Assembly (NCBI RefSeq): GCF_003399445.1
Contig: NZ_QUQO01000001.1
Coordinates: 989,001 to 1,053,000 of the forward strand
Direction of reading: 5' to 3'
From: Parvularcula marina
GTDB lineage: Bacteria > Pseudomonadota > Alphaproteobacteria > Caulobacterales > Parvularculaceae
DNA: 64,000 bases
Shown: positions 55,087-63,751 of the stretch, one piece after another
How the letters are laid out: the number at the start of each line of letters is the position of its first letter
Numbering within the stretch: position 1 is the stretch's first letter
The notes under the pieces: generated by a model
Seen by the model: only the letters and a program-made list of their open reading frames with translations
What the model was told of the DNA's origin: nothing
The model's database searches: none
Program-made: the position numbers and the translations under genes

Positions 55087-57003
55087 TTACGCGCCTTGCG
55101 GTTCGGGACCGCCAACGCCTTCGGAGCCGCCTTCATGATGGGGTCCGGCTGTCGGCACGGAGCTTGGTGGCGGGGTCGGCGTGTCGCCCGGATCATCGCG
55201 GATGATCTTCTCACCCTTGAGGAGCTTGCCGATCTCTTCGCCCGTCAGGGTCTCATATTCGAGCAGACCCTCTGACAGTTTGATCCAGTCCTCATTCTTC
55301 TCTTCGGCAAGGATCCGGCGCGCCGTTTCATAGCCTTCATTGACGAGGCCGCGGATCTCATCCTCGATCTTGCGCGCGGTCTCCGGCGACAGCGATTTCG
55401 ACCGGGCAATGCTCTGCCCAAGGAAGACTTCGCCTTCATCCTCGGAATAGGCAATCGGCCCCAGCTCATCGGACAGGCCATATTGGGTGACCATCGCGCG
55501 GGCGATCTTTGTTGCCTGCTCAATGTCAGAGGACGCACCAGAGGTGACATTGTCCTTGCCGAATTTGAGTTCCTCGGCGACCCGTCCGCCCATCAGGATG
55601 GCCAGCCGCGAAGTCATTTCGATCTTCGACATCGAGAAGCGGTCGCGTTCGGGAAGCTGCATCACCATGCCGAGCGCACGGCCCCGCGGGATGATGGTCG
55701 CCTTGTGAACAGGGTCCGTCTTCGGCACGTTCAGCGCAACGATAGCGTGGCCCGCCTCGTGATAGGCAGTCAGCGCCTTTTCATCCTCGGTCATGACGGT
55801 CGAGCGACGCTCCGCCCCCATCATGATCTTGTCTTTGGCGTCCTCGAACTCCTTGTTCGTGACCATGCGCTTGCCGCGCCGGGCCGCAAGCAGGGCCGCC
55901 TCATTGACGAGGTTTGCGAGGTCCGCGCCCGAAAAGCCCGGCGTGCCGCGAGCAATCGCGCGAATATTCACATCAGGGCCAAGCGGCACTTTCTTGATAT
56001 GCACACCGAGGATTTTCTCGCGGCCGACAAGGTCAGGGTTCGGCACGACGACCTGACGGTCAAAGCGGCCGGGGCGCAGAAGCGCCGGGTCCAGAACATC
56101 GGGCCGGTTAGTCGCGGCGATCAGGATGATGCCTTCATTGGCCTCAAACCCGTCCATCTCGACGAGAAGCTGGTTCAGCGTCTGCTCGCGTTCGTCATTG
56201 CCGCCGCCAAGGCCGGCACCCCGTGAGCGGCCGACCGCATCGATCTCGTCAATGAAGATGATGCAGGGCGCGTTCTTTTTTGCCTGCTCGAACATGTCGC
56301 GCACCCGGCTCGCGCCGACGCCCACGAACATTTCAACGAAGTCCGAGCCCGAAATCGTGAAGAAAGGCACATTCGCCTCGCCTGCAATCGCGCGGGCAAG
56401 CAGCGTCTTACCGGTACCCGGTGGGCCGACGAGCAGCGCGCCTTTGGGGATCTTGCCGCCAAGGCGCTGGAATTTCATCGGATCACGGAGATATTCGACG
56501 ATCTCTTCAAGCTCTTCTTTCGCTTCATCGATGCCGGCGACATCGTCAAAGGTGACCCGGCCATGCCGTTCGGTCAGCAGCTTGGCTTTCGACTTGCCAA
56601 AGCCCATGGCCCGGCCCGACCCCGCCTGCATCTGGCGGGAGACGAAATAGATCAGCCCGAAAATCAGGATGAAGGGGATGAGATTGATCAGGATAGAGAG
56701 CAGAAGCGGCATCTGCTCTTCGGGCACCACCGTGACCGGCACCTGAGCGTCGTAAAGGACGTCAGCGGCATTCGCGCCATCGGGCACGACCGCAACGAAG
56801 CGCTCACCGCTTGAGAGGAAGCCCGAGACGATATTCTCGTCGATCTCCGCCCGGCGGATGCCGTCATTGGCAACCTGCTCACGGAAATCCGAATAGCTCA
56901 GCTCCGTCACCTGCCCATTGGGCGTCGTGTTCGAGAACACGTAGAGCAGCATCAGGGCGACAATCAGCATCAAGCCCCAGACCATCCAGTGGCGACCGTT
57001 CAT
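55087..57003 (-). CDS. ftsH: ATP-dependent zinc metalloprotease FtsH
   Basis: 638 residues. Two N-terminal membrane spans (about 6-24 and 100-120) flank the periplasmic domain. AAA module with Walker A GPPGTGKT (193-200), then the SRH, and the M41 protease with HEAGH at 415-419. It degrades membrane and regulatory proteins such as LpxC and sigma-32 in E. coli. The Pro/Gly-rich end (about 610-638) is variable. It follows tilS by 52 bases, the conserved alphaproteobacterial order. Confidence 0.98.
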
Positions 57004-57055: not shown

Positions 57056-58423
57056 TCAAAAGCGGATAACGCGGCCCGAGAATCGTTCCTCGAGCAGGCT
57101 GTCCGCCTTAAATGTTCCCACATTATCTAGGAAGGCCTCGGCCTGCTTCCAACCGGAAAGCGCCGCGGCAATGAAATCCTGGCAGGCCGCAGGGATGTGG
57201 GAGAGTGCGTCCCCGCGAGTGAGACAAGGTAACGTCGAAATGCGCTTACGATCCAGTGTCGATGTCGCAATGTCACGCGGAATCAGCGCGCCAAGGGGTT
57301 TTATGACGGTGACCTCGGCGATGCCCTCCGGCACATGCACAATAAACCGCCGGTCATAGAGGTGCTTTTCGCCTGCTTTGACAGCGATCGGCTCAAAGCC
57401 CCCTGCCCCGCCGGCCCGGCCCAGAAGGGCAGCGGGCTCGCGGAAGATAAATGCATCATGGAGCCCGTAAGCGAGGATGACGCCAGAAATAGTGGAAACT
57501 GAATATCGACGCCCAACAGTTTCAATCTGTCCGGCGTCATTATGAAAGAGATCACCGTATCTTGTCGGCATGGTAGAGGATCCAGACACGGCATGAACGG
57601 CCTCAATGACAGCACCGTCTTGGAACCCACTGTTTGAACTGAAGCTCTCCAAAAATTGGACTGATGCATCCACGTGTGATTTGCGCATGTAAATCTGAGA
57701 CGCTTCCACATTACGAGCGGCTTCGATCCTGTTCAGTTCTGCGGCTTCTTCAGCCGTCCGGCAAAGCGCCTCGACCGTCAGCAGATCCTGTTGTTCGAGC
57801 GCGGCGAGGAGCGCGCGGATACGTACCCGCTCAAAGCGGTCATCCTCGTTTGAGGGATCATAGCTGACCGGCAGGTCATGAGCCTCAGCATAGCTTTGCG
57901 TCTCGGTGCGCCGCACCCCGAGCAGAGGCCGGTAGAGCGTCACCGGCTCGCCCGCCCCGCCTGCGATCAGGCGGGTCTCGGGCATCCCCGCAAGGCCCTG
58001 GCCTGACCCGCGGCGCAACCGCATGAAGACGGTCTCTGCCTGATCATCAGCTGTATGCGCGGTGACGAGGGTTTCGAGCCCGAGCCTGTTGCAGGCGTCG
58101 CAGAGCAGCCGATAGCGCGCGGTGCGGGCATTGGCCTGAAGGTTTCCCTTACTCCGCTCATCCCGGACGGGCGCAGCCCGATCCGGGACCTCATGACGCT
58201 GAGGGAGACCCCCGCTTTCGCGGGGATGAGCGGCAGAAGTCCAAACAAGTGTCTCATGGCTGATGCCCCGGGCCGCGCACCATTCAGCGACTTTTGCCGC
58301 TTCATACGCTGCTTCAGGCCGGAGGCCATGATCGACCGTCAGCGCGATGATTGGGACGTTTTTCTCATGCAATACATGAAGAAGGGCGAAGCTGTCCGCT
58401 CCGCCCGAGACGGCGACCGCCAC
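57056..58423 (-). CDS. tilS: tRNA(Ile)-lysidine synthase, with a repeat-derived in-frame insertion
   Basis: 455 residues. Lysidine synthase that modifies C34 of tRNA-Ile2 so that it reads AUA. PP-loop SGGADS (6-11) and the HTADDQAETVFMRL motif (about 119-132) are present, then the TilS C-terminal domain. Between LVWTS and LQANARTARY the protein has about 29 extra residues (HPRESGGLPQRHEVPDRAAP...) that come from a palindromic repeat (58154-58233). The GTG at 58423 has GGGAGAG eight bases before it, but it sits just before the PP-loop, and the frame stays open upstream (LKFDWALPPGEPVAVAVS), which reads like the family N-terminus. Confidence 0.9.
   Translation of the reverse strand: MAVAVSGGADSFALLHVLHEKNVPIIALTVDHGLRPEAAYEAAKVAEWCAARGISHETLVWTSAAHPRESGGLPQRHEVPDRAAPVRDERSKGNLQANARTARYRLLCDACNRLGLETLVTAHTADDQAETVFMRLRRGSGQGLAGMPETRLIAGGAGEPVTLYRPLLGVRRTETQSYAEAHDLPVSYDPSNEDDRFERVRIRALLAALEQQDLLTVEALCRTAEEAAELNRIEAARNVEASQIYMRKSHVDASVQFLESFSSNSGFQDGAVIEAVHAVSGSSTMPTRYGDLFHNDAGQIETVGRRYSVSTISGVILAYGLHDAFIFREPAALLGRAGGAGGFEPIAVKAGEKHLYDRRFIVHVPEGIAEVTVIKPLGALIPRDIATSTLDRKRISTLPCLTRGDALSHIPAACQDFIAAALSGWKQAEAFLDNVGTFKADSLLEERFSGRVIRF
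58154..58233. repeat. Palindromic repeat element inside tilS
   Basis: An 80-base unit with perfect 11-base inverted ends: CCGCTCATCCC (58154-58164) and GGGATGAGCGG (58223-58233). Within it are two hairpins: TCCCGGA...TCCGGGA (58161-58188, with an inner GGGC/GCCC pair) and CCCCGC-TTTC-GCGGGG (58210-58225). It lies within the tilS reading frame without a stop. It is REP-like, related in form to elements near 62435 and 63563. Confidence 0.85.
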
Positions 58424-58467
58424 CGGCTCTCCCGGCGGCAGCGCCCAGTCGAATTTCAGGTCAGCCG

Positions 58468-59394
58468 TCAGTTGCAGACCGCAGCTGCGCGCTCTTCGGC
58501 ATATTTGGTGGCAAGGCGCTGTTCCATGTTCGGGAACTTCTTGAGCCCTGCATTGAAGACGCGGCAGGCCTCTTCAGGCCGGTTGAGGCGGGTGAAGGCG
58601 ATGCCGAGCTTCAGATACGCCTCGGGCGAGCGTGGATCGTCCTTATAATTCGACACATGGTCGAGGAAGATGCGCGCCGCTTCGCCATTCGCGCCGGTCG
58701 CCAGATAGATCTCACCGAGCATGAATTTGGCTTCTGCCGTCTGGGTCGCCTCGGGGAATTTGGCGACAAAGGCTTCAAGCTTGGCTTCGGCCGTCTCGTA
58801 ATCGGCAGCCAGCACCGACTGATAAGCCTCATCATAGGCACGGTCGGGATCGTCCGGCAGCATGACAGTCGGCGTCATCGGGCCTTCGGGCTCGCCTGTA
58901 TCTTCGCCGCTCAACAGATCGACCGGCCCACCGGTCGTGCCGCGATCGGGATTGTCGATGCCGTCAATGCCAGGCAGCCGGCTTGGCGCGCCGAATTCCG
59001 GCGACCCTGCGCCTTCGAGACGCTCAATGATCTCCTGCTGACGCTCCAGCCGGTAGGCGAGCTCCTCAACCCGGCCGGTCAGCTCGGCAATCGACTGCTC
59101 AAGCTGAAGAACGCGAATTGATGTGTCCGCAGCGGACGGCCCGTCTGGCGGGAGAACCGCGCCAGAGGGAAAATTCTGGGTGCCGCCCAGCGGACGCTGC
59201 GGGCCTTCTACTGAATAAAGTGCGCCCTGCAGGTCGCGGAGCTGGTTTTCGAGCCGGATGAGGCGCTCCTCGACCCGGTCTCCGCGAGCGGCGGCTGGAT
59301 TTGCCTGAACCTGCGCGACCGCGCTGCCTCCCATCATGGAGGTCAGAAGGGCAGCCGCAATTCCGGCCCGGACAGTGTAAGAAAGACGAAACAT
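58468..59394 (-). CDS. cpoB: Cell division coordinator CpoB/YbgF
   Basis: 308 residues. Signal peptide 1-27 (SAVA/QVQ). Two coiled-coil stretches (about 40-60 and 90-118: DRVEERLIRLENQLRDLQG, LQLEQSIAELTGRVEELAYRLERQQEIIERL) for trimerisation, then a C-terminal TPR domain (about 188-300: AYDEAYQSVLAADYETAEAKLEAFVAKFPEA, AEAKFMLGEIYLATGANGEAARIFLDHVSNYK). It works with the Tol-Pal system in the periplasm. In most alphaproteobacteria pal lies just upstream; here a divergent ClC gene does. Confidence 0.93.
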   Translation of the reverse strand: MFRLSYTVRAGIAAALLTSMMGGSAVAQVQANPAAARGDRVEERLIRLENQLRDLQGALYSVEGPQRPLGGTQNFPSGAVLPPDGPSAADTSIRVLQLEQSIAELTGRVEELAYRLERQQEIIERLEGAGSPEFGAPSRLPGIDGIDNPDRGTTGGPVDLLSGEDTGEPEGPMTPTVMLPDDPDRAYDEAYQSVLAADYETAEAKLEAFVAKFPEATQTAEAKFMLGEIYLATGANGEAARIFLDHVSNYKDDPRSPEAYLKLGIAFTRLNRPEEACRVFNAGLKKFPNMEQRLATKYAEERAAAVCN

Positions 59395-63537: not shown

Positions 63538-63562
63538 GGTAGGTCATTCTCTCAACCCGCGC

Positions 63563-63677
63563 ATCCCCGCGCAGGCGGGGATCTGCATCCGATCTTCCTC
63601 TCTCTCATTTCTCAAAGAGAACGAGCTTAAACCCAAACATCCCTCGCCCAAAACCAGATGCTTGCCTCCGCGGGCAT
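63563..63677. repeat. Inverted pair of palindromic (REP-like) units
   Basis: In the 214-base gap between the EEP and MBL genes: ATCCCCGC-GCAG-GCGGGGAT (63563-63582, perfect 8-bp stem) and, in opposite orientation, ATGCTTGC-CTCC-GCGGGCAT (63658-63677, same length with two G-T pairs). The two are about 75 bases apart, like a REPIN or MITE. Nothing between them looks coding. Confidence 0.7.
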
Positions 63678-63751
63678 GAGCGAAAGGAAGGAGACGGCGC
63701 AATGTCGGCAATCCGGCTGACAAATCCGGCCCACCGCGATAGGCTCCGCCC

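Follow-up and report, generated by a model that had tools for sequence, protein, structure and literature searches.

The tilS gene of this Parvularcula genome carries an 80-bp palindrome in frame within its coding sequence. This palindrome is very probably an inverted dimer of REP-like units that inserted into tilS after the split from the sequenced relatives, and the 25 residues gained most likely ride along as a passenger that TilS tolerates, without a new function. An earlier note on this DNA had proposed that the TilS enzyme contains sequence derived from a mobile repeat, and its origin from a repeat is supported by the repeat family, by the absence of the segment in relatives and by the unbroken frame. 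The features concerned are collected in Table 1, with positions counted in the window, i.e. the whole stretch of 64,000 nucleotides that was analyzed.

Table 1. Features in and around the tilS palindrome and the basis for each.
Feature	Position	Strand	Basis
Putative FtsH-like ATPase/protease, downstream of tilS	55087..57003	-	named from sequence
tilS, tRNA(Ile)-lysidine synthetase	57056..58468	-	ORF listing and profile match
80-bp palindromic element in tilS (REP-like hybrid inverted dimer)	58154..58233	-	inverted repeats, fold, genome matches
Terminal inverted repeat arm 1, CCGCTCATCCC	58154..58164	.	inverted-repeat search
B-type hairpin, TCCCGGA-CGGGC-GCA-GCCCG-A-TCCGGGA	58161..58188	+	fold; ~90% like TGTC-tagged repeat of another Parvularculaceae genus
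A-type REP-like half, CCGCTCATCCCCGCGAAAGCGGGGGTCTCCCTC	58201..58233	-	~20 other genome places match
Terminal inverted repeat arm 2, GGGATGAGCGG	58223..58233	.	inverted-repeat search
cpoB/ybgF, upstream of tilS	58468..59394	-	profile search
Another repeat-family member, 127 bp, imperfect/decayed ends	63557..63683	+	repeat match

As the earlier note had described, the 11-nt ends of the element (CCGCTCATCCC and GGGATGAGCGG) are perfectly inverted; their spacing is 58 nt and they form the sole inverted repeat of at least 8 nt within 58130-58260. The two internal hairpins claimed before were also recovered, as the fold consists of a closing stem and three hairpins, two of them strong and the last weak. 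The stem of the A unit (ATCCCCGC/GCGGGGGT) has 8 bp including one T-G pair and a GAAA loop, and that of the B unit has about 12 bp in two parts and a loop of 3. The tilS frame indeed crosses the element without a stop codon. The coding-strand flanks ACTTCTG and AGTAAGG share no direct repeat that would indicate a target-site duplication, and a search of a plasmid collection, run at the setting for distant matches, gave no match to the element.

We then compared this TilS with those of 43 related loci from the same bacterial family (Parvularcula species and other Parvularculaceae), some species being counted twice as they were reached via two collections. The inserted segment is absent from all of them. 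Where the relatives read ETLVW-xGEKPxTG-IQAAAR, this TilS reads ETLVW-TSAAHPRESGGLPQRHEVPDRAAPVRDERSKGN-LQANAR (ESGGLPQRHEVPDR is an example stretch of the predicted protein spanning the insert). The loop, which has 8 residues (xGEKPxTG) in nearly all relatives shown and is thus short, as the earlier note had said, has grown to 33, so the net gain is 25 residues or 75 bp and not the approximately 29 residues estimated before. Moreover, in a BLAST search of 100 genomes the TilS matches of most other relatives break off at residue 78 and resume at 103, because these relatives lack the inserted residues. Since the 80 bp of the element differ from the net gain of 75 bp, the site lacks about 5 bp of the consensus loop, so that either some target bases were lost or indels followed later. 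No precise empty site was found among the relatives, of which even the closest shares only about 56% identity in TilS, and the exact empty-site sequence cannot be given because of these missing bases and the lack of a visible target-site duplication.

Further copies elsewhere in the genome had been expected, and this holds for the arms of the element but not for the whole. The A arm (CCGCTCATCCCCGCGAAAGCGGGG...) has matches at about 20 further positions of the genome, with E-values down to 4e-8, and most of these copies belong to intergenic palindromes that measure 124-127 bp and whose ends read CCGCTCATSCCCGC...GCGGGSATGAGCGG. A second full-length copy of the 80-bp hybrid was not found in the genome. 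The B arm (CCCGGA-CGGGC...GCCCG-A-TCCGGG) is not repeated there in that form, although two looser relatives are present, and it is about 90% similar to a TGTC-tagged palindrome in another Parvularculaceae genus. In a third genus of the family, inverted pairs of A units are common, with lengths of 70-85 bp, short variable middles and CCA tails. The exact pattern with a TCC tail is absent from the genus studied here and frequent in two other genera, so this genus uses a variant. Altogether, 74 inverted pairs of 69-143 bp were gathered from this and related genomes. Because the A arm fits one repeat family and the B arm resembles a second, TGTC-tagged one, the tilS insert is, as judged from sequence likeness, a hybrid inverted dimer of one A-type and one B-type REP-like unit. 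Elsewhere in the genome, three 126-bp family members form a local array with about 220-bp spacing and similar flanks (L006:1063-1626, i.e. G000:C1:2396370-2396933). A RAYT was rejected as the mobiliser, since the genome has no match to Y1_Tnp (PF01797), which the same search finds in control genomes.

Copies within other genes had also been anticipated. In this genome, tilS is the only homology-supported case: the other ORFs that span a copy have at most 142 amino acids, and a Pfam search with ten of them gave no match. We then examined the 74 inverted pairs from this and related genomes and 60 further sites, and searched the long ORFs that span them against Pfam. As a result, two further genes, both from the same bacterial family, show homology on either side of the element. 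First, hpnG encodes a hopanoid-associated phosphorylase (PF01048; TIGR03468 just below its cut-off), and among the 29 orthologs on the tree 18 lack an insert and 11 have one in frame at a common site, which is clearly REP-like in 10; one further ortholog (L236) was omitted as a contig-end fragment. The distribution on this tree, which was built without the insert, is patchy (L219-L230): presence and absence need 7 changes, and the well-supported branches alone force 2. One ortholog (L223) has an unrelated palindrome at the shared site, and three (L221, L224 and L227) have further hairpins nested inside the element. Second, glyS, encoding the beta subunit of glycyl-tRNA synthetase, contains a REP-like unit in frame in one genome (G029; L315:1174-1199 and L369). 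It lies within a loop that in relatives ranges in length between about 20 and 150 residues, and other GlyS sequences run on there. The GlyS of the genome studied here (L385, G000:C1:2186943) has about 150 loop residues against 20 in some relatives, and no REP was detected in it. The leading arm is read in one common frame in tilS, hpnG and glyS, so that most of them read AH(P/S)xES or a near variant.

Other long ORFs over copies were not retained. In five of those from relatives (L267, L278, L301, L312 and L177) the Pfam domain begins after the element, so that the gene probably starts downstream of it, and further ORFs (L181, L183, L184, L178, L185, L298, L269, L305, L309, L351 and L357) look spurious, with no Pfam support.

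These observations can be brought together as follows. Copies would land anywhere at some rate, by means of a mobiliser or recombination, and those within genes would survive only where the frame stays open and the protein loop is tolerant, cells with a broken essential protein being lost. Open frames are rarer in intergenic copies than in dinucleotide shuffles (58% versus 68% for short copies and 22% versus 41% for long ones), and the idea that the element is shaped for translation was rejected on this ground. Given this lack of enrichment, the in-frame copies are best read as survivors of selection, and, if gene insertions survive only with an open frame in a tolerant loop, the 25 residues are most likely a passenger. 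What counts against the insertion reading is the lack of a precise empty site and of a visible target-site duplication, the difference between 80 and 75 bp, and the single occurrence of the exact hybrid, whose transfer as a unit, like mobility itself, is presumed.

The predicted structure bears on whether the loop has been put to use. The AlphaFold2 model shows a confident TilS fold (pLDDT 87.9), with 3a2k and 1ni5, both TilS, as the nearest solved structures. The insert is modelled in the PP-loop domain between the strand at 70-76 and the helix at 109-129, and with a pLDDT of 52-59 it is the least confident part, most of the core reaching at least 90; it is predicted to be a disordered loop, an outcome in favour of the earlier note, which had asked whether the segment is a surface loop. 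A loop with basic and acidic residues (AAHPRESGG...RDERSKG) in the catalytic domain of a tRNA-binding enzyme could alter tRNA binding or TilS activity and be kept by selection, and several species do keep in-frame hpnG dimers at one site. We consider this unlikely, as the model has low confidence there and no regular structure save one short strand, the frame of the repeat gives such a peptide anywhere, and the presence in hpnG is patchy. A broader proposal is that REP-like dimers are a continuing source of protein segments in Parvularculaceae, that sites such as that in hpnG are repeatedly hit or swap palindromes with the frame kept, and that some of the resulting loops, including that of TilS, have been put to use; this seems rather unlikely.

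The element might instead act at the RNA or DNA level, as an mRNA hairpin, a pausing site or a binding site that tunes the cpoB-tilS-ftsH transcript. Its fold is strong in the mRNA sense, at -58 kcal/mol against a shuffle mean of -41.7 (z -4.4; none of 200 shuffles as good), and the DNA fold gives a z of -4.7. REPs, moreover, have been reported mostly downstream of genes and have been proposed to act as RNA (PMC3733652). However, the tilS element sits well inside a translated frame, so that passing ribosomes would open its hairpins, a search of Rfam gave no family near its cut-off (best E 0.27) and no relative has an insert at this site; such a role thus appears quite improbable.

Decay of tilS into a pseudogene, or an assembly error that produced the insert, might be suggested by the length of 80 bp, which is not divisible by three, but is very improbable given the state of the gene and of the assembly. 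The gene is full length and, as the sole TilS match in a 3.4-Mb genome, single-copy; its frame is open throughout, for 505 amino acids, with at least 455 counted from GTG. The product has the PP-loop motif SGGxDS, matches PF01171 with an E-value of 2e-43 and scores 158 bits against the TilS_N profile TIGR02432 (cut-off 93.6), and all 24 residues invariant across an alignment of 33 TilS sequences are intact. The assembly is 99.5% complete and the contig is 2.9 Mb long. The GTG at 58423, the first start in the listed ORF, lies directly at the PP-loop motif and the open frame extends upstream across the end of cpoB (58423-58480), so that the true start probably overlaps cpoB. Finally, although other proteins have loops of such length and that of GlyS is naturally variable, it is hardly conceivable that the segment is an ordinary lineage-specific TilS loop with a coincidental palindrome, which is refuted by the sequence-matching repeat copies elsewhere in the genome; the perfect 11-bp ends, the fold z of -4.4 and the 8 residues in nearly all relatives shown also speak against it.

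Insertion of a REP-like dimer thus remains the preferred reading. Palindromic repeats inside genes are a known kind of event; what appears to be new is the gene, the lineage and the recurrent site in hpnG. It is a clean case outside Rickettsia in which a repeat was built into an enzyme that most bacteria cannot do without. In the hpnG orthologs, where the insert is present, absent, nested or replaced by another palindrome at one site, the arrival, change and departure of such inserts could be followed, and it could be tested whether they are ever useful.

The closest known system is that of the CGTC REPs. They are found chiefly in alphaproteobacteria and form inverted pairs, some of them hybrid, with no transposase dedicated to them; some copies lie within genes and code for 20 to 30 residues, and genes of tRNA synthetases and of tRNA pseudouridine synthases are among the hosts (Di Nocera et al. 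2013, PMC3733652). Neither Parvularcula nor tilS is mentioned in the main text of that paper. The A unit, with an 8-bp stem starting with AT and a 4-nt GAAA loop, agrees with this superfamily, as do the oppositely oriented paired units (74 inverted pairs here), the hybrid dimer, the intragenic coding length, the alphaproteobacterial host and the lack of a dedicated transposase, for which PF01797 alone was searched in this genome. The tag, however, differs: each end of the tilS element has CGCTC instead of CGTC, TGTC or CCTC, and B-type relatives such as L176 have TGTC. The stem rule (8 or 9 bp, loop of 4 or 5) is obeyed by the A unit and broken by the longer stem of the B unit, and the unpaired tail is CTC in the tilS copy, whereas many copies in the related genera have CCA. 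Because the architecture fits but the strict tag and the stem rule for one unit fail, we treat the tilS element as REP-like, near the CGTC superfamily but without proven membership in it.

Two other systems are more distant. GTAG REPs linked to RAYTs are likewise short hairpins that are often paired, but they have another tag and the Y1 transposase gene is absent from this genome. Bacterial MITEs are also small, with terminal inverted repeats and no coding capacity of their own, and their copies can fuse in frame; the tilS element differs in having no target-site duplication, and no parental transposon was seen. As for Rickettsia, Parvularcula is free-living, unlike that genus. The earlier note had taken the Rickettsia palindromic elements (RPE) as precedent and assumed the same process with a different repeat family. 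In-frame RPE insertions are well known and have been reviewed, nearly half of the Rickettsia elements lying in ORFs (PMC10969869), and the process is supported here, but the phenomenon was already known to be wider than Rickettsia, and the family lies near the CGTC REPs, a superfamily to which RPE-4 and RPE-6 of Rickettsia conorii themselves belong (PMC3733652). Such a large share within genes is not seen in our data, with tilS alone in this genome and only hpnG and glyS among the copies of the sampled relatives. What is shared with RPE-4 and RPE-6 is the central feature, small palindromes placed in frame in unrelated genes, here tilS, hpnG and glyS.
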